Positions 1 through 16,326 of a DNA stretch of 64,000 nucleotides are shown in pieces. A program made the translations under genes and the position numbers. Numbering within the stretch: the first letter of the stretch is position 1; every line of letters begins with the position of its first letter. The stretch is from a virus, in IMG/VR virus record IMGVR_UViG_3300049489_000707, positions 1-64,000 of that record, one strand, 5' to 3'. Under the pieces are notes generated by a model that worked only from the letters and a program-made list of their open reading frames with translations, did not search any database and was not told the DNA's origin.

Positions 1-1056
1 GATGGTCACGGTGATCTGGTCACCGGCCGACGCTGCCTGCGAAGCTGCCGCCGACTTCGGCGACTCACCCAGCTCGTTCACCGAGGTGACGTAGTAGGTG
101 TAGGTACCAGCTGCGAGGCTGGTGGTGCCAGCTGCGGTGCCGAGCGAGATCGACGGAGCTGCGGGGCCGTTGCTGCGTGCAGCTGCGGGGCGGGTCTTGC
201 CGCTCAGGAAGCGCGAGGCTTCGAGATTGACAACACCGTTGCTGACCCACTGCTTGCGCAGCTCTGCGCCGGTCGCATCCTGTGCCGAACCTGCCAGCAC
301 GATGCGCTCTTTGCCGAAGCTGATCTTGTTGTACGCCGAGAGCACCTTGGGGTCGACCAAGAGCTTGTCAGCCGAGCCGAGGTTCATGGCCGAACGGACT
401 GAGCCGTCTTCGATCATGTCCTGCGACAGGGTGCCGCCACCGCTGATGACCACGGTGTCGTCGCTGCCGTACTCGCCGAACATCAGGTCGGTCGCGTTGC
501 GCTCTGCATCCGACTGACGGATCTGCGCATCGAGGCCCAGCATCGAGGGGAGACCCGGGATGGCGAGCTGGTTGCCGTCGAACAAGCCGCTGTTCGAGAA
601 GTCAGCCTTGCCACGGAAGAGGTCGAACTCGATGTCAGCCGCGAGCTTCTTGGCTGCATCCGACGCTGCCCGCTCTTCGGCCTTCTGCCCATCGGCAGTG
701 TCGACCATGTTCGCCACGATCGAAACCCGGCGAATGTGCGAGTAGTACGCCATCGGAACCACGATACGAACGAAGTCGCTCGTCTCTTCCTGGCCGACTG
801 CGCCTTCGAGCTGAGCGGACCCGCCGAACACACCGTAGCTGAGCTGCCGGTTGAACTGGGCGAGAGTCGACTTGCAGCTGTCGACCTTGACCATCTTCTG
901 GAGCTTGATGTGCGAATCGTCGAAGGTCACGTTGTGCATGACCGGCGAGAGATCCTCGATCTGGAGGGAAGCGCCCTGCACGAGAGTGCTGGGTGCCGTG
1001 TTGTAGTTGCCGGCTTCGAGAGCCTTGAGCAGTGCTTGCGTCACTTCAGTAGCCAT
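1..1056 (-). CDS. Major capsid protein (C-terminus cut off by window edge)
   Basis: Open from the ATG at 1056 to the window edge without a stop, giving 352 residues. It should form the capsid shell. The call rests on position (directly after a scaffold-like gene in a portal-protease-scaffold order) and on a long alpha/beta protein with no enzyme motif. The N-terminus contains KALEAGNYNTAPSTL, almost repeated inside the 1212-aa protease protein at 4156-7794. The last visible part (about residues 310-352), with GTYTYYVTSVNELGES, looks like a fibronectin-III or Ig-like surface domain of the kind often attached to phage capsid proteins. The upstream sequence has GAGGAGA as ribosome binding site. 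Family assignment is inferred; a decoration protein is the alternative. Confidence 0.72.
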   Translation of the reverse strand, partial: MATEVTQALLKALEAGNYNTAPSTLVQGASLQIEDLSPVMHNVTFDDSHIKLQKMVKVDSCKSTLAQFNRQLSYGVFGGSAQLEGAVGQEETSDFVRIVVPMAYYSHIRRVSIVANMVDTADGQKAEERAASDAAKKLAADIEFDLFRGKADFSNSGLFDGNQLAIPGLPSMLGLDAQIRQSDAERNATDLMFGEYGSDDTVVISGGGTLSQDMIEDGSVRSAMNLGSADKLLVDPKVLSAYNKISFGKERIVLAGSAQDATGAELRKQWVSNGVVNLEASRFLSGKTRPAAARSNGPAAPSISLGTAAGTTSLAAGTYTYYVTSVNELGESPKSAAASQAASAGDQITVTI

Positions 1057-2624: not shown

Positions 2625-2969
2625 ATGAAGGAATGCAGCCTATGCGGCCTACCTAAGCCCCTGAGTGACTTTCACGAGAGAAACGACCGGGGACCACGGG
2701 GCCACAGGAGCCACTGCGAGGCCTGTCGATCGAAGGCGTACTTCAAGAAGCGCTACCCAGTGCCGTGCGGGGTCTGCTCAGAGCACAAGCGACTGGATGG
2801 CAATGGCAGTTGCAAGAAATGCAACGCGATTCAAGGGCTTAGGCAGTGTGGAAAATGCCGGAACTTGCTGGCTGTAAGCCTGCAGTTCTACGGTCACAAG
2901 ACTACATGTCGCGATTGCTTAAGCAGGCTTCCCAAGCGCAGGCGGCGCCTTGGCCGGCTCAGCCGCTGA
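2625..2969 (+). CDS. Small multi-CxxC zinc protein
   Basis: 114 basic residues with five cysteine pairs: CSLC near the start, CEAC, CGVC, CKKC, and CGKC followed by CRDC. The first 35 residues resemble the zinc-ribbon front end found before HNH domains of phage EndoVII-type nucleases, but no HNH motif follows. It may be a nucleic-acid-binding protein or a degenerate homing nuclease. It reads against its neighbours, and its last 51 bases overlap the 3' end of the convergent GGDEF gene. Start ATG is taken from the open frame; no strong ribosome binding site is visible. Confidence 0.6.
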   Translation: MKECSLCGLPKPLSDFHERNDRGPRGHRSHCEACRSKAYFKKRYPVPCGVCSEHKRLDGNGSCKKCNAIQGLRQCGKCRNLLAVSLQFYGHKTTCRDCLSRLPKRRRRLGRLSR

Positions 2970-4151
2970 GGGCTGCTCGGGCTGTACCACTTGCACGGGG
3001 ACTGGCGCTGGAGCTGGAACCGGAAGAGGCTTCAGTGGCAGCTGGTCGGCGCCCGTCGGGATGTGCCCTTCGTACCCTGGAACCTGGCTGGCCGCGTGAG
3101 TCTTCGCCTGGCCCGGCGCTGCACCGCTGGCCTTCTTCTGACCCTTCGCGTTGATGAGAGCCAGCTCTGCGTGGTCAGGCGTGTGCCCGAAGCCGAGGCT
3201 GAGGCTTAGGTTGTGGGTGCCGCCGATTGCAGGAATCGCTTCGAGCTTGTTGCGCACCGACCTGGCGAAATGGGCTGCGTGTTCATGGCTGGGCACGAAG
3301 GCGTGGAACTCGTCGCCGCCGATGCGGAACACCTTACCATGCGCTCGACCGACAGCCTCGTCCATCGCCTCGCGAATCGCTCCGCCCATCGCTGAGATGG
3401 CCTTGTTGCCGGTCTCGAAGCCGTGGACCTTGTTGATGCCGCCGAAGTCGTTGCCGTCCATGCGGATGTGAACACCTTGCTTGGGTCGGCTGAGGAAGTC
3501 GTGGTAGGCCTTCTTGTTGCCCATGCCCTTGACCATGGAATCGGTGAAGATTTCCCCGGTGAGGTGCTTGAGAACATCAGGATGCACGTGCCCCGCCTTC
3601 ACGGCCGCACGGAGGCCCTGGAGGGCCGCATCGAGATGTGGTTCGACTTTGGACAACGACATGAAGTACTCCTCGGCTTTCTGCAGGTCGTCTTCTGCCT
3701 GCTTATAACCGAGAGTAGCAGCTCCCTGTTGTACGTTGTCAAGCATCTGCTGTAGGTCCTCAGGCGACAACGGGTGACCGTCAAGGTACGCCTTCCCGTT
3801 GTGGAATTCAACCAACTGCGCCTCGGGCACACCAACGCGGTGGTACTCAAAGCGAGACTCGGGACCGGCACTGGGAGGAGTGGGCTCTTCGTTGATCAAC
3901 TCGGGATGTTTGCCCTGGCGCATGTCCTCCATGTTGACGACCCTGTAGTACATGCTGTTGGCCAGCTTCCAGATGACACGTGAGGCGTCTGCAGGGCTCT
4001 GCTTCTGCAAGTCCTCCAGCCATCCAACGTGGTCTTCCAGGACCTCGAAGTGTTCGCTGTCCAAGTAGAACTTGCCGATGACGGTCGTATGCAGGTCATC
4101 CCCGTGTGGGTGAAGCTGACAAAGCAGGTACAGATTTTGAAGGCCTTCCAT
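2919..4151 (-). CDS. GGDEF-domain (diguanylate cyclase-like) protein in head operon
   Basis: 410 residues. Residues 1-200 are helical and not recognised. Residues about 205-338 read as a GGDEF nucleotide-cyclase domain: metal-binding Asp in RMDGNDFGGIN (230-240), an intact RIGGDEF (276-282), the following strand LSLSLGFG (315-322) and a final ALINAK (331-336). In canonical cyclases the segment is D-x-D-x-F-K-x-x-N-D...G-H-x-x-G-D; here the second Asp is Asn and the GH..GD pair is GF..GN, so nucleotide recognition may differ. No RxxD product-inhibition site precedes GGDEF. The tail from about 365 is Pro/Ala/Val-rich and disordered. It lies 4 bases after the protease gene and is probably translated with it. 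Activity is uncertain; the fold assignment is fairly secure. Confidence 0.72.
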   Translation of the reverse strand: MEGLQNLYLLCQLHPHGDDLHTTVIGKFYLDSEHFEVLEDHVGWLEDLQKQSPADASRVIWKLANSMYYRVVNMEDMRQGKHPELINEEPTPPSAGPESRFEYHRVGVPEAQLVEFHNGKAYLDGHPLSPEDLQQMLDNVQQGAATLGYKQAEDDLQKAEEYFMSLSKVEPHLDAALQGLRAAVKAGHVHPDVLKHLTGEIFTDSMVKGMGNKKAYHDFLSRPKQGVHIRMDGNDFGGINKVHGFETGNKAISAMGGAIREAMDEAVGRAHGKVFRIGGDEFHAFVPSHEHAAHFARSVRNKLEAIPAIGGTHNLSLSLGFGHTPDHAELALINAKGQKKASGAAPGQAKTHAASQVPGYEGHIPTGADQLPLKPLPVPAPAPVPVQVVQPEQPSAAEPAKAPPALGKPA

Positions 4152-4155
4152 GAGC

Positions 4156-7100
4156 TTACCCTACCTTACCCGGGACTTTTTGTCCAGGAGCGCCCCGAGG
4201 GGGTGAAACGTCGGACTCTGAAGACTCTGGGTCCCGCCCACGAGGCCCTTTGCGCTCTTCCGGCGGCACCCAGGCGGTATGGAAGGGGGCTCGCATCATC
4301 GAAACAATGGTGGCCTTGGGGTTGCGACTCTCGTGCTGGAGAGCGACAAGTCGACGCCGGGCCTCATCAACGTACCTCTCAGGCACGCCATGGCGCCGCA
4401 TCTGCAGGTCGAGCTGCTGAGGGTCCAGTGCCTGGAGCCACTTCGCAGCTTCAGGGTGGAAACGTAGCTTCGCCTCGATGCTGGCCAGGTCTCTCGGGTC
4501 ATTCGGAGAGGCGGTCATCAGGTCGTGGTACTTGATGTAGTCTGGAGTGGGCGTTGCGTGAAGGTCCTTGTCGGCGAAAGCATATCCATGGTCGATGAGC
4601 TTCATGCCCCCGGGGGTCATCATGAAGTTACCACGGTGCCGGTCATGGTTGGCTGCGATGACGTTCATCATGGTCATCTTGTGCAGCTCGCCACTGGCCA
4701 TGAGGTTCTGCAGAGTCTGCTTGTGCTCTGGATTCTCGGTGTCGAGGTGCTGGCCACCAGCAACGTTCTCGATGACAGCATGCTTCTGACCAGTGCGAGG
4801 ATGCAGGACGACGCCGGTCGGGGTCACGTACTTGCCCATGCCAAAGAAATCTCTGGCCAGGTTGTGGTACAGGCCCTCTCGGCTGGGCTCGTCAAAGTCG
4901 CTCTCGTCGTGGTTGGCCTTGACGTAGACCTTGTGGCCTTTGTTCACGGTCCAGAAGCTCTGCGCTTGGTTGATACCTGAGAAGCTGGCCTGTTTTTCAG
5001 CATCGAAGTCAAGCCCATCGACCAGGTTGCGTACGTCGTCGTGGTGGGTGTACTCAGGCACGCCATGGACAGCGTGGCTGACGATGCTGGGAGCTGCCAA
5101 TTCCTCCGGGTACTGCTGGACACTGGCCCCGCCTGCACGAGGAATCTTCATCAGGTCCTCGGTGGTCCAAGACTGGGCCTTGTTGCGGGGAACGCCGATG
5201 AGGTGCTCGGGCGTAGCGCCAAAGAAGGCCATCTGCTTCCCGCCAGGGATGTAGCCGTGGCCAGGCTTGACGGTCTTGCCGCCAAACTGCACCGTCTCTG
5301 GAATTTGATTCAGGTCCTTGTACTGATTGCCGCCCGGAGGCTGAATCAGTGCTTTCAACTTGCCTGGGTCTTGCTCCATGTCAGTGAGTGCGCCCTTCGA
5401 CAGTTCGACCGACATCTCTTCGAACTTGACAATCTGTTGCGCCTTCGCTGCCTTCTCGCTGGACGCCAACAGCTGAGGCACCAGGTAGTGGAAGTACATC
5501 AGGAGAGCCGGCATCTCGCCATACTTCTCGACCCATTGCGCGTGGGTTTTCGCGGTCTGAGCGGCCAGGTTGGTATCAATCCCAGTCTCGGATTTGTTCA
5601 TGTACGGACCCACAGCGTCCCAGAAGGGCCGGTGGTCGGTGGCCTCGTTGAACCCGCCAGTCTTCATGCCACGGCTGGCCTCGTGAGGAACGATGCCCAC
5701 CCAGTTCTTCCAGAAGGCGGGGAAAATGGCGTCTTCCGGGTTTTCCTTGAAGAGGTGCCCCCATCGAGGGTGCTGGAGCATGTGCTTGACTGCGTCGTGG
5801 TGCTGGCCGTAGTACTTGTCGATGGCCCCCATGACGTGGGAGTTGTTGGGGTTCCAGAGTACCTCATTTCGGAGGTGTCGGATGGTGGCCCCATCCTGGC
5901 GCTTGTCGAGACCGAAGAGGTAGCGGCTGAAGTGGGTGTCGGGCACGGTGACGTTGCCACCGCCCAGCATGCCGTAGGTGTAGCGAGCCGTCTTGGTCGC
6001 GAGGCCTGGGACGCTGGGGCCTGCAGTGTAGGGCCCGATGTCTGGCTGGCCTTTTCCAGTTCGAAGACGGCGCTTGTTCTCCCAGTTTCCAGCCTGGGTC
6101 TTGTGGAACATCAGCTCTTCAACAGCAGAGCGGGCGTCAGCGCGGTGGCGACCAATCAACTCAGCCAGAGAGTTGTGGAGGGTGTGATACTGGTCCATGT
6201 TCTTGAGCTTGTTGTTGGCGAGCATGAAGCCGCCAATCTCGCCCGCCTTGCGGCCAGTGAGCTTCGAGTCGATCTTGTTGCGGAGAGCGTCGCCCAGACG
6301 AGCCCAGTGCTCCGGACTGTGGTCGGGGAACTTCTGGGGCTGGTCTCGATTGAGCCAGTCGTGCTTGAGCTTGTCACTGAAGCCAGGTTGTCGTGGGTCG
6401 GCACCGGTGGCCTTCATGCTATCCACGAGATGGGCGTACATCAGCTCCTGCATGGGCACCGGCGTATTCGGGCTCAGTTGACTGAAGAGCACACCGTGCA
6501 TGATGACTTCTGGGGGCAGTGTACCAGCCTTCAGGTGGTGGTGAACCTTCGACCAGTTCTCCATGGCGTAGTCGTGGAACTTCTCGACCTTGGGGTCCGC
6601 CATGATGTTGTGGAACTTCTGGCCAGCGTCCGTAGTCTCTTTGTCCCGGCTGGGGATGTACAAGGGGAAGCTACCACGAGGGGTGTGGAGCACCCCGGTG
6701 TTCTCATCGAAGTGGGGCTTATCGATGCCCGGATTGGGCTGGACGGGCTTGCCACGAATGGTCAGAGGGCCGTCAGACTCGACCTCGACACCAGAGTCTG
6801 AATCTACCTCGGGCTCGGGGGCGGGCTTGGCAGCCTTGGGGGCGGATCCGGCAACTTTGGCCGGATTCTTGGCCGGATTCTTCGCGGGCTTGGGGGCGGC
6901 GACCTTGACCTTCTCCTTGATCTTCTTCACCAAGTACTCCTTGATGACTTCCTTCTGGGCCTTCTTGATGGTGTAGTCGTGGACCAGGTCGGCGAAGCGA
7001 TCAATGAAGCCATCGCTGGCCTCGGGGAGGCGGTTCTTCAGGAACTTCCTGAACGGGGTCTTGCGGTCCCAGTCGCGCACGGCTGCCTTCACGCGATTGC

Positions 7101-7794
7101 GCAGGCCTTGGTCTTCACGCTGCAGAGCCGAGCCGCCGGTGAGGGTTCCAGGAGCTGTGTTGTAGCTGCCGGCCTCCAGGGCCTTGCGGATCTCCGGGGA
7201 ATCGATTTCCGGCTTGCCTTCCCACTCCATCGAGCCGCCGAGCGGGGTGAAGTTGGGGTGAGCGTGCTCCTGCTTCTTGACCGTGGGGTCGTTCGGGTCG
7301 GCGATGACGCCCGAGTGGCAGCTCTTGTTGCAGGGCTTGATGGTGGCCGCAACCCGGCGAGCGATGGAGCGAAGGAGGCGGTTGCCACCCTTCTCCTTCT
7401 CCAGGGTGGTGCCCTCGATGCTGTACCGGATGAGCAGGGGCTCGCCGTTCTTCTGGTAGTCGCGAATCATCGCGGCTGCAGCGATAGCACCGGGGTGACC
7501 CGAGCTGTCGAACAGGCGGCAAATGCCGTAAATCATTGGGAGTTGGATCTTCTGCCAGTACTCCAACTGCCGGCTGTCGGTGCAGTCCTCGGGCCCGTAA
7601 ATCTTCTTGCAGAAGACCACCTTGCCGATGATGTCGTTGGCGCTGGCCCCTGCAGCGTCGTCGCCACGGTGCTCCCAGTTGAGGACGCCCAGACCTTGCT
7701 CCATGTCGGAGATGTCGCAGCCCTCTACGTCCAGGATTTCCCCACTGGAATCAATAGCCTCTGAGGCGAATACGCCGTCGATGATCATGGACAT
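4156..7794 (-). CDS. Multidomain prohead protease polyprotein with kinase-like C-terminus
   Basis: 1212 residues from the ATG at 7794, chosen because CGAGGAGAA precedes it; the frame stays open to 8184 but that stretch faces a rightward gene. Residues 1-170 look like a prohead protease: LNWEHRG (His42), IIGKV (55-59) and RYSIEG (Ser125). Residues 204-228 nearly copy the capsid protein N-terminus. Residues 290-345 are a Lys-Ala-Pro then acidic linker. Residues 595-630 resemble the helix-hairpin-helix and Asp loop of HhH-GPD glycosylases (VPGLATKTA, VPDTHFSRY). Residues about 950-1080 look kinase-like: VYVKANH (Lys959), NHDRHRGN (1049-1056), KLIDHG (1065-1070). Protease and kinase-like calls are moderately strong, the glycosylase-like one weak. 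It may cut the scaffold and itself, leaving its domains inside the capsid. Confidence 0.68.
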   Translation of the reverse strand: MSMIIDGVFASEAIDSSGEILDVEGCDISDMEQGLGVLNWEHRGDDAAGASANDIIGKVVFCKKIYGPEDCTDSRQLEYWQKIQLPMIYGICRLFDSSGHPGAIAAAAMIRDYQKNGEPLLIRYSIEGTTLEKEKGGNRLLRSIARRVAATIKPCNKSCHSGVIADPNDPTVKKQEHAHPNFTPLGGSMEWEGKPEIDSPEIRKALEAGSYNTAPGTLTGGSALQREDQGLRNRVKAAVRDWDRKTPFRKFLKNRLPEASDGFIDRFADLVHDYTIKKAQKEVIKEYLVKKIKEKVKVAAPKPAKNPAKNPAKVAGSAPKAAKPAPEPEVDSDSGVEVESDGPLTIRGKPVQPNPGIDKPHFDENTGVLHTPRGSFPLYIPSRDKETTDAGQKFHNIMADPKVEKFHDYAMENWSKVHHHLKAGTLPPEVIMHGVLFSQLSPNTPVPMQELMYAHLVDSMKATGADPRQPGFSDKLKHDWLNRDQPQKFPDHSPEHWARLGDALRNKIDSKLTGRKAGEIGGFMLANNKLKNMDQYHTLHNSLAELIGRHRADARSAVEELMFHKTQAGNWENKRRLRTGKGQPDIGPYTAGPSVPGLATKTARYTYGMLGGGNVTVPDTHFSRYLFGLDKRQDGATIRHLRNEVLWNPNNSHVMGAIDKYYGQHHDAVKHMLQHPRWGHLFKENPEDAIFPAFWKNWVGIVPHEASRGMKTGGFNEATDHRPFWDAVGPYMNKSETGIDTNLAAQTAKTHAQWVEKYGEMPALLMYFHYLVPQLLASSEKAAKAQQIVKFEEMSVELSKGALTDMEQDPGKLKALIQPPGGNQYKDLNQIPETVQFGGKTVKPGHGYIPGGKQMAFFGATPEHLIGVPRNKAQSWTTEDLMKIPRAGGASVQQYPEELAAPSIVSHAVHGVPEYTHHDDVRNLVDGLDFDAEKQASFSGINQAQSFWTVNKGHKVYVKANHDESDFDEPSREGLYHNLARDFFGMGKYVTPTGVVLHPRTGQKHAVIENVAGGQHLDTENPEHKQTLQNLMASGELHKMTMMNVIAANHDRHRGNFMMTPGGMKLIDHGYAFADKDLHATPTPDYIKYHDLMTASPNDPRDLASIEAKLRFHPEAAKWLQALDPQQLDLQMRRHGVPERYVDEARRRLVALQHESRNPKATIVSMMRAPFHTAWVPPEERKGPRGRDPESSESDVSPPRGAPGQKVPGKVG

Positions 7795-7823
7795 GTTACG
7801 GATTCTCCTCGCGACCCATGGAT

Positions 7824-7833
7824 GGAAGATTGC
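7824..7833 (-). promoter_or_regulatory. Candidate late promoter motif
   Basis: Minus-strand GCAATCTTCC, 30 bases before the ATG of the 1212-aa protease gene. It lies exactly where leftward transcription must restart after the rightward island at 7.9-10.4 kb. The same motif precedes other structural genes at 14380, 59498 and 63121, with a variant at 2571. Confidence 0.45.
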
Positions 7834-7888
7834 CTCTTGCGTTCTGGTAGCCTGATGGTGTAGGGTCGGCCCATGGAGGCTGACCACA

Positions 7889-8131
7889 ATGAAGTTCTCC
7901 AACAAAAAGGAGCGCAAACTATGCCGACTCTGCAAGAAACGACCGAACACCTTCTCGACGGGCGGGAAGTACAAGAGGGATGCGGAGCACGACCTGTGCC
8001 GACAGTGCCACAAAAGTCTATCAGACTCCGACTGGCAGGCTCGAAACGCGCCCTCAAAGGCAGAGTCGTCCGAGTCCTCCTCTGGGTCGCAGCCCTCGGA
8101 CCCACCGCCGTTGTCGTCGCTGACCGGGTAG
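7889..8131 (+). CDS. Small zinc-finger protein, first gene of rightward island
   Basis: 80 residues, basic front and Ser/Asp-rich tail. CRLC and CRQC, 23 residues apart, form a likely treble-clef or zinc-ribbon site; the tail SSESSSGSQPSDPPP is disordered. GGAGG lies 11 bases before the ATG. It runs opposite to the head operon and faces the protease gene, with about 90 bases between the two starts. Function unknown; a nucleic-acid-binding or host-takeover protein would fit such a small early gene. Confidence 0.6.
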   Translation: MKFSNKKERKLCRLCKKRPNTFSTGGKYKRDAEHDLCRQCHKSLSDSDWQARNAPSKAESSESSSGSQPSDPPPLSSLTG

Positions 8132-8152
8132 CTCACTTCTTCGGGGTCTGCC

Positions 8153-8434
8153 TTGGTCACTAAGACCGCCAAGTACCGAGTCACCTACCGGAGATTCAAC
8201 GAGTACGTCGACACGGGCACCCATCTGACCAACGTCCACTACGTGCTGGAGTGCGACGTTGTGGCGCTCGATGCCACAGACGCCATAGCCAAGGCCTCGG
8301 TCGCTTTCATGCCGCTGGCCCACTGGTCTGGCGACTGGAAGGTCCGCATGCTTCGTGCCCCGCAAGAGGTCGAATTTGTTGGGTCTCAGCCCGATCGATC
8401 CACAATCGTGAATCTGACGAAGATGGGCACTTGA
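8153..8434 (+). CDS. Hypothetical protein of small-gene island (TTG start)
   Basis: 93 residues with an alternating hydrophobic pattern: KYRVTYRRFNEYVDT, then VHYVLECDVVALDATDAIAKA, then WKVRMLRAPQEVEFVG. This suggests a small beta-alpha-beta domain. An in-frame stop at 8129-8131 limits the start, and the first possible initiator is TTG at 8153; the ribosome binding site is weak, so the start is uncertain. Not recognised. Confidence 0.5.
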   Translation: MVTKTAKYRVTYRRFNEYVDTGTHLTNVHYVLECDVVALDATDAIAKASVAFMPLAHWSGDWKVRMLRAPQEVEFVGSQPDRSTIVNLTKMGT

Positions 8435-10237: not shown

Positions 10238-10430
10238 CATCGAGTTGCTGAAGTTGGAGAACAAGGGCCTGCGGTTGCAGAATGAGAACCTGCAGGATGA
10301 ATTGAGGATTCTTCGGCGGTACCGACAGCTCATTGAGCGCAGCACTCAAATCGCTGCTGCAATGGAGAGCGTGCCAGTTTCGGTAGACCAGATGACGGTC
10401 TACCTTGGCGCTACCCGCGCTGGGACTTGA
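10230..10430 (+). CDS. Small coiled-coil protein, last gene of rightward island
   Basis: 66 residues. Residues 3-45 form a Leu/Asn heptad coiled coil (ELLKLENKGLRLQNENLQDE), followed by a short hydrophobic end. AAGGAGAAAGACA precedes the ATG. The last 20 bases overlap the 3' end of the convergent Mu F-like gene, showing how tightly the island is fitted into the head operon. A dimerising small regulator or antitermination-like factor is possible but unproven. Confidence 0.6.
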   Translation: MDDIELLKLENKGLRLQNENLQDELRILRRYRQLIERSTQIAAAMESVPVSVDQMTVYLGATRAGT

Positions 10431-11172
10431 ACTCGTCGTAGCCGGGGCTCTTGTATTGGACTCGGCCGGCAGCGTTGAATCCATACCCCGGCATCAGGGT
10501 CGTCAAGACACATCGACAGTGTGGGTGTAGGCCGCCCACTTTTGGAGTGGGGTCGCCCTTCTTGTGGTATCCACTGCCAAGCTCGCTGAGCTTCCAGACT
10601 CGTGGGGTGACCTGGTCGGGCTGAACGTGGAGCTTGGTACACTCCGAACATCGCACGCCATCCCTGACCGTCACGAAGAACACCGTGGGGTCATCGATGC
10701 CTGCAGCCGCGTTGCTGCGTACGATGCCGTCCATGATGCTGGTGTTTCGCACTACCGTGGACTCAGTCTCGAAGATGCGCTTGAGGTCGCGTGTGGCCTC
10801 ACCCATGACCTCGTACAGCTTGCCGCCCAGGACCGTCTCGATGTTGGTATCGACGCCCTTGTTGCCGGCTTCCTGGAGGAACGCCTGTACCGCCTGTACC
10901 GTCTTGGCCTTGGCACGCTCCTTGGTCGCATCGATGTAGCTGTTGGAAATCTTCAGGAGCGTCTTGAGCACGTCCTGGTCGGGACGTACACCTTCCTCGG
11001 CTGCTGCCAGGTCGAAGATTCCCTTGAGCGTCAGGTCGGGGCGGTAGGCGATGTACAGGCGCTTGCCCGTGGGGTGCTTGTCCCCAAGGGTGTGGGAGCG
11101 AATCTTTTCGAACAGCTTTTCGACCGCTCCTTCGATGAGCTTGACGGCCGCCGGGCCCAAACGTGGCTTCAT
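10411..11172 (-). CDS. Head morphogenesis (Mu gpF-like minor head) protein
   Basis: 253 residues. The C-terminal half has the signature of the Mu F/SPP1 gp7 minor head family: CSECTKLHVQPDQ, followed after about 35 residues by LHPHCRCVLTTL. Paired Cys and His in this arrangement are typical of the family. Such proteins bind the portal and help start head assembly, and some enter the cell with DNA. It follows the portal gene after 3 bases, the usual order, which supports the call. Confidence 0.78.
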   Translation of the reverse strand: MKPRLGPAAVKLIEGAVEKLFEKIRSHTLGDKHPTGKRLYIAYRPDLTLKGIFDLAAAEEGVRPDQDVLKTLLKISNSYIDATKERAKAKTVQAVQAFLQEAGNKGVDTNIETVLGGKLYEVMGEATRDLKRIFETESTVVRNTSIMDGIVRSNAAAGIDDPTVFFVTVRDGVRCSECTKLHVQPDQVTPRVWKLSELGSGYHKKGDPTPKVGGLHPHCRCVLTTLMPGYGFNAAGRVQYKSPGYDEFKSQRG

Positions 11173-11175
11173 GGG

Positions 11176-13359
11176 TTACCCCTTCTTCTTGGCCGTGGGC
11201 TTGTGCTTGTCGGCAACGTCGATGATTTCCTTCAAGGCTTCCTTGGACTCCGCCTCAAAGGCCTGGAGGGCCTTCTTGACGAACATGCGCTGTTGGGCCA
11301 AGAGCTTCCGGCGGCTAGTCGGCATCTGAGCCTCCGACTTGCTGAGGAGGCCGCTGAGCTGGTCCAGGCTGCGAGTCAAATCTTGAGGCTGATCGTCTGC
11401 TGTCGGCGAGGCATCGTCTCCACCAGGCTGGGGCTGAGCGCCAGCGTCCTGGGGGCCATCCCCAGCATCAGCGCCGTCGCCAGGATCTTGGCCGCCTCCA
11501 CCGTCGCCACCGCCGTCTCCACCACCTTGGCCAGGAGGCGGTTGCTGGGCTGCCTGCTGCTGAGCCATCTCGGCTTGCTGCTGAGCTTGGAGGAGCTGCA
11601 TCTGGGTGAAGTAGTTCGGGTTGTTGAGGAAGTCATAGCGGGGATCCTTGCTGGCACCCTTCATGTTGAAGAAGTGCTCCATGATGAGGCCCTGAGGCAC
11701 GTACTTGTCGAGAACTGCCTGCCACTGCGGGTTGAGGAGGAACTGACCACCCCACTCCTTGCCGACGGGCTTCTTCTCGACCTTGTCAAGCACTTCGTCC
11801 ATCGACATGTGGACTGCCATGTCTTGCTGGAGGCGTGTGGACTCTTTCTCTGCCGTCTCGACATCGAGGCCCACGAACTTGAGGCTGCAGGTCTTCGACA
11901 GCTCTTCGTCGATGAGAGGCAGAATCTTCGAGTTCATGAAGTTCTGGAACTGAGCCAGAAGTGGCCGAATGCCAACGTCGCGGTGGGCTTCGAGCTTGTA
12001 CTCGTTGTTCGACTCGCTCAGGGCCTGGTTGTTGGTACCGCGCGACAGGTGGGCGTAGCCAGGCAGCTCTTCCGGGCTCATCTGGAAGCCGGAGAGGATG
12101 ACGCGGGCGTTGGTGTCCGACAGGTACTGGAACTCCATGTCGCGGGAGCTGTTGTCGATGGGGTACCAGCCAATGTCGTCGTCGGTGCCAACACCGAAGA
12201 TGGGCATGCGCCAGGCGTTGCCGACCGAGTTGATGGAGGCCTGGAACTGCTGGCGGATGTGCTTGATGACGCCATCGTCAGCGTCATCCGACTTGATGAC
12301 AATCATGCCACGAGCAGCTCGACCAGACTGGAAGTAGAGCTTGTTGTGGTTGCCGATATTGATGTGCGTGGTGACGGCCGTGATGATGGTGTCGAGCGGG
12401 GTCAGCGGGTAGCCGTCCAGCTCCACGTCGGTCACTGGGTAGAAGTTGTGAACGAGACACTCTTCAGCGGTGAAGGCCTGCACTGGGCGGCCGGCGATGA
12501 CCTGCACCCAGGCGTACTCATCGTCCTGGAAGCGCTCGGGCTCCAGGTCGGTGTTCTTCACCTGCTCCAGAAGCTTGCGGGCTTGCTTACGGACAGCGTC
12601 ACCTGCTTCCTTCTGAGGTGCGGCACGGTAGATGGTGCCTGCGTCGATTGGGCGAATGGAGTGGAACTTCTTCTTGCCGTCCATGCCCATCGAGTAGATA
12701 GCTTCGACAGCCACACGGCCGAAGAGCACTGCATTGCGGGCGCACATGTGCATGAACTGACCGAAGCTCAGGGCGTCGGTGTCCTTCCAGCCCCTGGTCT
12801 CGCCACAGCTCAGAATCTTCAGTTCAGCTGCGCTGATGCGGTCCTGCAGCTTCTTCTTCTCTTCGTCGTTCAACTTCTCCAGGAGGCCGGGCTCGGGCTC
12901 AATTTTGAAACCGGTGCTGAAGCGGTCTGGCTGAGGACGGCCGAAGCTGCTCAGCTGGTTCGAGCGGGCATTGCAGATGGCTGCGACCAGGTCGTCCTGG
13001 ATGCCGATGCGCTTCAGAACCTCGTCGGGCAGGAGGCGCTGTTTGACCTTGTAGAGGCTTTGGTAGGTGTTATTGAGGCTGGGGTCTGTGTCGAACGCCA
13101 GGCGCTCGATGGTGTCACCGGGGCCGTTGAGCAGGTTCATCACCGACTTGACAAGCGGGCTCATGCCGGCAACACGCTTGTTCTCAGCCTCGACTTGCTC
13201 CTTGCTCAGCTCACCAGCGCCAAACGGGTCGGTAAGAGCCACGGAGATCTGCTTTTTTGAGCCTCCGGACGGACGCTCACGAGGGAGCAGCGACTCGATG
13301 AGAGACTTCGCCATAGGGCTCAGTTCGTCAGACTCGATGCTGTTGCGTTTCTTGGCCAT
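11176..13359 (-). CDS. Portal protein
   Basis: 727 residues, the dodecameric ring at the packaging vertex. Support comes from its place two genes after the terminase large subunit and next to the Mu F-like gene, its length, and portal-like segments: an N-terminal helical region, the wing and stem stretch with HSIRPIDAGTIYR and DEYAWVQVIAGRPVQAF, and FQMSPEELPGYAHLSRG near residue 430. The C-terminal 150 residues are low-complexity Gln/Gly/Asp-rich and probably disordered, then a basic helix. The start at 13359 overlaps no gene; 3 bases separate it from the 328-aa gene. Confidence 0.8.
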   Translation of the reverse strand: MAKKRNSIESDELSPMAKSLIESLLPRERPSGGSKKQISVALTDPFGAGELSKEQVEAENKRVAGMSPLVKSVMNLLNGPGDTIERLAFDTDPSLNNTYQSLYKVKQRLLPDEVLKRIGIQDDLVAAICNARSNQLSSFGRPQPDRFSTGFKIEPEPGLLEKLNDEEKKKLQDRISAAELKILSCGETRGWKDTDALSFGQFMHMCARNAVLFGRVAVEAIYSMGMDGKKKFHSIRPIDAGTIYRAAPQKEAGDAVRKQARKLLEQVKNTDLEPERFQDDEYAWVQVIAGRPVQAFTAEECLVHNFYPVTDVELDGYPLTPLDTIITAVTTHINIGNHNKLYFQSGRAARGMIVIKSDDADDGVIKHIRQQFQASINSVGNAWRMPIFGVGTDDDIGWYPIDNSSRDMEFQYLSDTNARVILSGFQMSPEELPGYAHLSRGTNNQALSESNNEYKLEAHRDVGIRPLLAQFQNFMNSKILPLIDEELSKTCSLKFVGLDVETAEKESTRLQQDMAVHMSMDEVLDKVEKKPVGKEWGGQFLLNPQWQAVLDKYVPQGLIMEHFFNMKGASKDPRYDFLNNPNYFTQMQLLQAQQQAEMAQQQAAQQPPPGQGGGDGGGDGGGGQDPGDGADAGDGPQDAGAQPQPGGDDASPTADDQPQDLTRSLDQLSGLLSKSEAQMPTSRRKLLAQQRMFVKKALQAFEAESKEALKEIIDVADKHKPTAKKKG

Positions 13360-14391: not shown

Positions 14392-16326
14392 TTACCCGTC
14401 GAAGACGAACTTGCCCCGGCGGACGGTTTTGGTGGTACCGCCATCGGAGACTTCCCCCGTCAAGCTGGCGATCTGCTCCTTCAGGAAGTTTGCTGGCTGG
14501 CCTGGGCGAAGGTTGCCGGTGGCCTCAGCGATGGTCTTTCGAATGTCCTCCAGGTCGGAGGACTTGCTGTTGGGGATGTTGATTTTCCCCTTGGGGGCGA
14601 AGACGTTCATCACCATGTACCGCATGGCGTCGACCTCATCGTCCTCGTCCTTGTCGGGCTCTTCCGAGATGTGACCACCAGCGTCCGTCATGAAGTGGTA
14701 CTTCTCGATGCGGCTGGCCAGGAACTCGCAGCCAGGGTCGTCCTTCAACAGGAACATCTGGGGCACTCCGACAGCCGGCATGAGCTTCATGCGGACCACC
14801 TCGATGCCTGCCTTCACTGACCCTGGATACTTCGACCACTCGCGCATGTTGAAGCCCTTGCGCTTGAAGGTCTTGATGTCGGCCGGGTAGGCTTCGTCGC
14901 CGAAGATGGTTGGAGAGTAGGTCTTCAGAGGCTCGCAGACGGCCACCTTCTCATCCAGCTCCAGGTTGGGCATCGCGATGACCGTGAAGATGAACATGAA
15001 CTGCCCGAAGACGGCAGCCACGGTGACGGCGAAGTTGTGGGTGAAGCCGAAGTCCATGCCAGCGTAGAAGCGGGCACCCTTGTCCAGCATTAGCTGAAGG
15101 AGCTGGGCCTTCGTCATGTGCTGGTCGTGCTTCTCGCCAGTAATCATCTCCGCCATCTGAGAGGCGGTCTTCATGTGGGTTTCGCGCTCGAACTTGGGGT
15201 AAATCAAGCCGCTGGCATCGGGCTTCCGGCAAAGGAGCTGGGTCTGCACTGCGGCAGCGCTGCTCTGCTTGAAGCTGTTGATGATGGAGGAGATTGGTTT
15301 GAGCATCGTGCTCTGGCTGGTCTGATGAGTGGCCAAACGGCCCTTACACGCAGAGAACAGCGGGCACTTCTTGCAGCCGGCGAATCCTTCCCGGGGGTAG
15401 AACTTCTTCTGGTTCTGTTCATCAAGGAGCTTGTAGTCTTCCTCGGTGATGTGGCGCAGAGTGGAGTCGTTGATGTAGTAGGTCTGCTTGGGCTTCTCGG
15501 GCTCGTGTCGTTCCGGGAGGCAGGCCTGAGTGATATCAATGACGTTCCAGTGCCTGACGTGCAGGCCTGTCTCGGAACTGTTGGCGATCTCTGTCTGCAC
15601 CAAGCCGTAGCTGAACTTCCGGGTGGAGGTCAGCAGAGTGATGGGCTGCAGCCCATCCCGTGGGTCGGGGATATGCTTCGCCTCTTCGTAGGCTCTGATG
15701 TGCTGCTTGGGAACAACGTCCACCTCGTCCACGCACAGGAACTCGGTGTGTGCCGAGTTGGCGCCTTGCATGGTGCAGAGAACGATTTGGATGTAGTTGT
15801 ACTTGCGCTCATAGGCCATCTTGGCCTCAGAGGATAGGTCCAACCACTCCTTCTCGGTCAGGCTGCGCCCGGTCTCGCTGTTGTAGTACCGACAGATTTC
15901 AATCTTCTTGACGTTCTGACCGATACGGAAGTCGCGAATGTATGGGCTGGCGAAGAAGTCTCGCACGTACTCCTGGCTCTTCTTCGACTGGTCGAAGATG
16001 GCCGCCATGTGAGCGACGTTGCGGCCCAGATGGAGCACCTGCAGCACTTCGAGCACAGAGGCGCCGAGGGTCTTGAAACCGCCACGGTTGGCGTAGGCCA
16101 TCACACGGCTGAAGTCTGGATCGTTGTTGAGACGGGCCTTGTTGTAGACCTCCCAAATCATGTCCATCGGCGAGCTATTGCTCTCGTCGCTAACGATGGT
16201 GTCGGGGAAGAAGAGCTTTGGGCCCAAGAAGACGCGGATCCACCGAGCCAGAGCTTCCTTCGTCTCACAAGGAGTGAAGAGAAGCTGGCGGATCTCGTCG
16301 TCTCTGCTCGGGACTAAATCGCTCAT
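14392..16326 (-). CDS. terL: Terminase large subunit
   Basis: 644 residues. The ATPase half has a Walker A-like NRGGFKTLGAS (80-90) and Walker B FLCVDEVD (196-203). The RNase H-like nuclease half has AGMDFGFTHN (Asp425), FGDEAYPADIKTF and DEDDEVDAMRY as acidic sites. It packages genome DNA through the portal. Between the halves sits a cysteine cluster CKKCPLFSACKGRL (318-331), with another Cys at 366, probably binding zinc or an iron-sulfur cluster; this is not part of the T4 gp17 core. Its ATG overlaps the stop of the HNH gene by 4 bases. The small subunit is three genes upstream. Confidence 0.9.
   Translation of the reverse strand: MSDLVPSRDDEIRQLLFTPCETKEALARWIRVFLGPKLFFPDTIVSDESNSSPMDMIWEVYNKARLNNDPDFSRVMAYANRGGFKTLGASVLEVLQVLHLGRNVAHMAAIFDQSKKSQEYVRDFFASPYIRDFRIGQNVKKIEICRYYNSETGRSLTEKEWLDLSSEAKMAYERKYNYIQIVLCTMQGANSAHTEFLCVDEVDVVPKQHIRAYEEAKHIPDPRDGLQPITLLTSTRKFSYGLVQTEIANSSETGLHVRHWNVIDITQACLPERHEPEKPKQTYYINDSTLRHITEEDYKLLDEQNQKKFYPREGFAGCKKCPLFSACKGRLATHQTSQSTMLKPISSIINSFKQSSAAAVQTQLLCRKPDASGLIYPKFERETHMKTASQMAEMITGEKHDQHMTKAQLLQLMLDKGARFYAGMDFGFTHNFAVTVAAVFGQFMFIFTVIAMPNLELDEKVAVCEPLKTYSPTIFGDEAYPADIKTFKRKGFNMREWSKYPGSVKAGIEVVRMKLMPAVGVPQMFLLKDDPGCEFLASRIEKYHFMTDAGGHISEEPDKDEDDEVDAMRYMVMNVFAPKGKINIPNSKSSDLEDIRKTIAEATGNLRPGQPANFLKEQIASLTGEVSDGGTTKTVRRGKFVFDG

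Follow-up and report, generated by a model that had tools for sequence, protein, structure and literature searches.

Phages are known to counter cyclic-nucleotide alarms by destroying or sequestering them. To our knowledge, few phages make such signals themselves, and we know of none for which the synthase has been shown in the particle. GGDEF domains were reported in phage polyvalent proteins in 2017, in a study that argued for the packaging and injection of these proteins and proposed a role in cyclic-nucleotide signalling, and that found their assemblin-like peptidases at C-termini only (Iyer et al., PMC5512222). A locus orthologous to the one described here, with the same terminase-to-capsid gene order, is present in Myxococcus phage Mx1 (OR576727.2), where WNM70323 and WNM70324 are annotated as “hypothetical protein” and “nucleotide cyclase”; the paper on the Mx1 genome does not discuss its “nucleotide cyclase” gene (PMC10720576). 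The two Mx1 genes lie directly behind a “putative prohead protease”, with about 37% identity to our protein over 86% of the query. The Mx1 locus differs in that the N-terminal module and the GGDEF domain are two genes, and in that it carries GD, with the canonical Asp at position 344, rather than GN.

Gene order and the prohead-protease polyprotein

The window, meaning the whole stretch of 64,000 nucleotides that was analysed, is a portion of a 168,933-bp virus record. Its head module runs in the order terminase, portal, MuF-like protein, protease polyprotein, GGDEF protein, two small genes, and major capsid protein, with the following features:

14392-16326: terminase of the head module
11176-13359, minus strand: portal, part of the head operon
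10411-11172, minus strand: MuF-like minor head protein, part of the head operon (10411-13359 together with the portal)
4156-7794, minus strand: prohead-protease polyprotein; the open frame extends to a GTG at 8184, and homology begins at the ATG at 7794 or 7788
7180-7794, minus strand: assemblin-type prohead protease domain, from the alignment and a weak phrog_1028 match in relatives
7105-7191, minus strand: peptide KALEAGSYNTAPGTLTGGSALQRED after the protease domain, a copy of the major capsid protein N-terminus, from sequence comparison
5380-6777, minus strand: middle domain, the most conserved part of the polyprotein, function unassigned, from the alignment of relatives
4315-5115, minus strand: PI3/PI4-kinase-like (HipA-like) domain
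2919-4151, minus strand: GGDEF protein of 410 aa, from the open reading frame, a Pfam GGDEF match above cut-off, and homologues
1-1056, minus strand: major capsid protein, truncated at the edge of the window, from phrog_752 (major head protein)

The GGDEF gene runs on the minus strand from an ATG at 4151 to a stop ending at 2919, and it starts 4 bases past the stop of the upstream prohead-protease frame (4156-8184, minus strand). The initial annotation had described a 410-aa frame with a RIGGDEF motif at this position, 4 bases behind a protease gene, and both points were borne out, the upstream frame encoding an assemblin-type prohead protease together with further domains. The domain of this protein is the sole GGDEF of the entire record. 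Antisense to these genes, a cysteine-rich, zinc-ribbon-like frame of 114 aa (2625-2969, plus strand) lies between the GGDEF gene and the next head gene and overlaps the 3' end of the former. Homologues are found antisense at the same place in nearly all relatives, and a Pfam search with this frame gave no match.

Within the protease domain, the His of an EH motif and the Ser of an S[IV]EG motif are invariant in all 18 aligned proteins. The domain had no Pfam match, and relatives match phrog_1028 (“head maturation protease”) weakly, with E values from 1.6e-5 to 3e-3. A stretch of ~27 residues at the N-terminus of the major capsid protein (KALEAGNYNTAPSTLVQGASLQIED; window ~950-1040, minus strand) recurs in the polyprotein of most relatives, and this capsid-like peptide is possibly a shared prohead-targeting or protease-recognition element. 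We also considered it as a simple E/A site, but while a P1 Glu is seen in the capsid protein copies, many of the protease copies have Ser, Thr, or Ala there, and cleavage at the peptide is therefore not established. The middle domain contains the motif PGLxxKTxRY...VPDTHxxR, which is reminiscent of HhH-GPD glycosylases. Identity as an HhH-GPD DNA glycosylase found no support and is kept as no more than a lead, as PF00730 gave no match up to an E of 10 in eight related records, and a PDB profile search with the middle domain found nothing. Mx1 encodes a second PI3/PI4-kinase-like (HipA-like) domain in WNM70334. Two relatives have long insertions in the middle of the polyprotein (L026, 7995-12656; L042, 4311-9227); one member of alignment A5 matches Pfam Intein_splicing (E 7e-5), as does L042 weakly (0.041), and these insertions are possibly inteins in a phage morphogenesis protein.

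Successive homology searches, together with a phage collection, yielded 20 distinct lineages including Mx1, most of them metagenomic contigs. In all 20, the GGDEF protein belongs to the protease polyprotein or follows it, in L026 after a gap of about 0.7 kb. In-frame fusion is recurrent, and eight lineages (L012, L035, L036, L037, L039, L040, L042, and L044) encode protease, middle domain, N-module, and GGDEF domain, in that order, in one open frame; the contig of L012 begins within the middle domain and that of L044 stops within the GGDEF domain. The GGDEF gene is separate in nine lineages, the window among them, and the remaining three (Mx1, L023, and L045) have one gene for the N-module and another for the GGDEF domain. 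The kinase-like domain closes the polyprotein in 10 lineages, every one with a separate GGDEF gene, and is missing from all eight fused lineages. As the kinase is present in 10 of the 20 lineages but the GGDEF domain in all of them, the latter is the constant cargo and the kinase an optional one. The resolution of the domain tree is too poor to tell whether fusion or splitting came first. A first scan of genome contigs in the collection with the domain alone gave no relative, and a second gave one true relative, L051, on a “Saccharibacteria” MAG contig (48%), along with weak matches (21-35%) that we took for ordinary bacterial cyclases. Weak tblastn matches of the Mx1 domain in phage records were likewise set aside; those examined (L013-L018) have canonical GGDEF motifs and are mostly bacterial-looking membrane-type proteins.

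The GGDEF domain and its nucleotide site

The 410-aa protein has a genuine GGDEF domain, with RIGGDEF at residues 276-282. The features within its gene are as follows, with site positions numbered as in PleD and residue roles taken from PMC7288161 and PMC7186502:

3702-4151, minus strand: N-terminal module, residues 1-150, mostly of good predicted confidence, fold unassigned; a separate gene in Mx1, L023, and L045
3117-3569, minus strand: GGDEF domain, residues 195-345 (approximate), from Pfam, PDB profile search, AlphaFold2, and structure comparison
3456-3458, minus strand: codon of D232, the counterpart of the metal ligand D327 in PleD, invariant in all 20
3432-3434, minus strand: codon of N240, the counterpart of the guanine contact N335 in PleD, invariant in all 20
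3405-3407, minus strand: codon of N249, the counterpart of the guanine contact D344 in PleD; 15 of 20 have Asp here, while L024 and the window's clade have Asn
3306-3320, minus strand: GGDEF motif, residues 278-282, in which D280 is equivalent to PleD E370 (metal ligand)
3144-3146, minus strand: codon of K336, equivalent to PleD K442 (phosphate contact), invariant wherever the sequence reaches
3066-3089, minus strand: conserved C-terminal tail motif, consensus HSLVPGxEG, here S355-G362

The window protein (P0001) scores 33.1 bits against Pfam GGDEF (PF00990), above the cut-off of 23.8, and the same profile matches all 19 scanned relatives (best E 4e-18). A PDB search with the family profile returned diguanylate cyclases (DosC at 1.6e-12, WspR, PleD, and others). 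The domain is under purifying selection, with dN/dS of 0.053-0.071, compared with about 0.14-0.15 for the C-terminal tail, and these values together with the matches in all 19 relatives indicate that the domain is not a chance resemblance. An AlphaFold2 model (a monomer without ligand) was poor when built from five sequences (mean pLDDT 55.7), which was remedied by an alignment of 19 sequences, where block pLDDT in the GGDEF domain was mostly 88-96. Comparison of the modelled domain using VIA-align gave Z scores of 18.8 to WspR (3i5c) and 17.5-17.8 to PleD, and the best 50 entries listed were all GGDEF proteins. The initial annotation would have been contradicted by a fold unlike GGDEF or by the lack of a metal and nucleotide site, and neither outcome occurred: the predicted fold is that of a GGDEF domain, and the site residues are conserved. 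Matches to mCpol (PF18182; 15.1 bits vs. a cut-off of 26.4), Thg1, and Cas10 were weak and below cut-off.

Besides the residues listed above, R276 (PleD R366) and D280 (PleD E370) are both invariant in the family. Across 19 sequences with pairwise identity as low as 34%, six of the seven PleD site positions do not vary, which has a probability of about 5e-5 under a random draw of domain columns. Together with the low dN/dS, the invariance of the residues for metal, GTP, and phosphate makes a dead domain unlikely. The sole variable site position is the D344 equivalent, with Asp in 15 lineages and Asn in five, namely the four-member clade of the window and L024.

Two substitutions had been read in the initial annotation as changes at base-contact positions. 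Both are present in the window protein, DxD being replaced by DGND (residues 232-235) and GD by GN (residues 248-249), but the reading holds for the latter only, which corresponds to the guanine contact D344 (PMC7288161). The second Asp of DxD (PleD D329) has no documented base contact, and Asn occupies this position in all 20 relatives and in 22 of 108 sampled ordinary GGDEF domains, a background biased by its retrieval through similarity to this phage family. As the change is common elsewhere and invariant here, we rejected it as an argument for altered base recognition. The other documented base contact, N335, is kept as N240. PleD D344 has been described as essential (PMC7288161), and replacing this Asp with Ser inactivated four of five canonical cyclases tested, while in Hypr enzymes a Ser at the same position broadens specificity (PMC6456294). 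The window's clade also has Gly for K332 and Lys for D336. These changes are rarer, and among the 108 sampled GGDEF domains the only one with both is that of L046, a phage protein of 3724 aa, which suggests kinship with the GGDEF domains of phage polyvalent proteins. K332 touches phosphate via its main chain (PMC7288161), so Gly need not be harmful. Judging from these three residues (Asn at 344, Gly at 332, and Lys at 336), the window copy might bind GTP poorly. A separate phage-contig GGDEF protein of 242 aa (L048:7908-8633) has Thr at the D344 position (GHAAGT), resembling Hypr-type specificity.

Outside the GGDEF domain, the only invariant residues are S355 and G362. No sensor or receiver domain was recognised in the GGDEF protein. 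The inhibitory RxxD I-site ahead of the motif is not conserved in the family alignment, its Asp being absent from both the window protein and that of Mx1, and c-di-GMP sensing at this site is therefore unlikely.

Possible roles in the virion and the host

With moderate confidence, we interpret the GGDEF protein, from its sequence and gene context, as a catalytically competent cyclase that is functionally part of the prohead-protease polyprotein and that would be packaged in the virion, injected, and active in signalling within the host. Prohead proteases of tailed phages work inside the prohead, and the GGDEF domain of the fused lineages should therefore be carried inside as well. The in-frame fusion to the protease in eight lineages makes the presence of the GGDEF protein in virions more likely. 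As the GGDEF gene is separate in over half of the lineages, including the window, co-packaging is not guaranteed, and for the split lineages it is gene order and homology that suggest carriage into the prohead.

We infer catalysis, packaging, delivery, product, and target along the following lines. The protease would enter the prohead together with the cargo that is attached to it or co-translated with it (the middle domain, then the kinase and/or the GGDEF protein), and the polyprotein would be processed at maturation, leaving the GGDEF domain in the virion to pass into the host together with the DNA. In the host, GGDEF dimers would make c-di-GMP by condensing GTP. For the window's clade, having Asn instead of Asp as the base-reading residue may loosen specificity towards ATP, as Asn could pair with the Watson-Crick face of adenine, and the product might then be cGAMP or a different cyclic dinucleotide. 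Such a signal would reprogramme the host or disturb its cyclic-nucleotide immunity. A tentative and rather doubtful extension of this idea is that a clade of ~140-172 kb phages delivers a packaged cyclic-dinucleotide synthase as processed protease cargo, and that the window's clade has shifted away from c-di-GMP through the change from Asp to Asn, with a second messenger, possibly a decoy or an agonist, made at the start of infection.

Other large multi-domain proteins are encoded by these phages. For example, shortly past its capsid gene Mx1 encodes a protein that combines GNAT, ART-PolyVal, and NUDIX domains, and a NUDIX domain was found in all eight related records, with all matches but one lying in open frames of over 1300 aa. 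Such large multi-domain proteins in the same genomes agree with the idea of packaging and injection put forward by Iyer et al. (PMC5512222). Elsewhere in the window's own genome, beyond the window (G000:C1:150578-150889), a NUDIX domain lies in an open frame of 1512 aa. Neither an EAL phosphodiesterase nor a PilZ receptor was found in eight of these virus records, which thus show no partner for c-di-GMP on the phage side.

The initial annotation had left a choice between a virion or late nucleotide cyclase and a domain repurposed as a structural or sensing module. The GGDEF fold, the conserved site, and the head operon are consistent with a late cyclase, while the invariant catalytic residues disfavour a purely structural role. 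We consider it possible but unlikely that the domain is a non-catalytic module whose binding of GTP and Mg regulates the protease polyprotein or head assembly. GGDEF domains elsewhere are known to have turned into receptors as they degenerated, and such a module would fit the constant link to the protease as well as the lack of D344, K332, and D336 in the window's clade. However, when GGDEF domains degenerate it is usually the GGDEF motif or the metal Asp that disappears, whereas here the equivalents of D327, E370, R366, N335, and K442 are invariant, D344 is kept in 15 of 20 relatives, and the RxxD I-site is not conserved.

It also seems doubtful that an active cyclase is made late and acts unpackaged in the infected cell, for instance by blocking host immunity or superinfection before lysis. 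A separate and probably translationally coupled gene in 12 of the 20 lineages, including the window and Mx1, would suit such an enzyme, as would the short GGDEF gene that unrelated Yuavirus phages carry outside the structural region. In the eight fused lineages, however, the protease would bring the domain into the prohead, and an invariable linkage to the protease across 20 lineages is unexpected for a free cytoplasmic enzyme. A neutral or degenerating passenger domain is very improbable, for although the window's clade is substituted at three conserved positions, the dN/dS is 0.05-0.07, the site residues are invariant, and the domain persists in 20 lineages that share as little as 34% identity in pairwise comparison.

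Comparison with known systems

Our search of the open literature gave no account of a GGDEF domain joined to a prohead protease. The link between the two therefore appears to be new, while GGDEF domains in phage polyvalent proteins were already known (Iyer et al. 2017). Because this link is found in about 20 lineages and in the cultivable phage Mx1 of the soil bacterium Myxococcus xanthus, second-messenger synthesis by a virion is directly testable. It raises the questions of whether a second messenger is made from virion cargo at entry, which one it would be, and what effect it would have on the host. With the natural GD and GN versions, it could also be tested how the product specificity of GGDEF enzymes is set by the base-reading residue.

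The window protein resembles canonical diguanylate cyclases (WspR, PleD, and DosC) in its fold (Z 17-19) and in its equivalents of D327, N335, R366, E370, and K442, but it differs from them in having no recognised sensor or receiver and no RxxD site, and, in the window's clade, in having N344, G332, and K336. It shares with the Hypr GGDEF enzymes, such as the cGAMP synthase GacA of Geobacter, a changed D344 position combined with GGDE[F/Y] (PMC6456294), but those enzymes have Ser or Thr at this position, whereas the window has Asn249 and 15 of its 20 relatives the canonical Asp. The mCpol domain (OptS) of Panoptes and the Cas10 palm belong to the same superfamily of cyclic-nucleotide palm domains, but only weak matches link them to our protein, in which the GGDEF motif is intact and the Pfam GGDEF score is much above the mCpol score. 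A phage-encoded GGDEF has also been annotated in Yuavirus and Bordetella phages (PaSz-4 and CN1) as a “diguanylate-cyclase GGDEF domain protein”. In contrast to the present locus, that gene is stand-alone, encodes ~156 aa, and lies beside an antirestriction gene, upstream of the terminase and outside the head module.

The polyvalent proteins (Iyer et al. 2017) are alike in placing GGDEF domains in phage multi-domain proteins that are predicted to be packaged and injected, and the DGNxFGxxNK signature of the window protein is also found in L046, a phage protein of 3724 aa. Polyvalent proteins combine at least two unrelated activities in one polypeptide, and this is what we find in the family, where protease, middle domain, and GGDEF domain are joined in eight relatives; the window itself has the GGDEF domain as a gene of its own beside a polyprotein of protease, middle domain, and kinase. 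In contrast to the arrangement in the polyvalent proteins, the protease here is N-terminal, followed by the middle domain, an optional kinase, and the GGDEF domain behind them.
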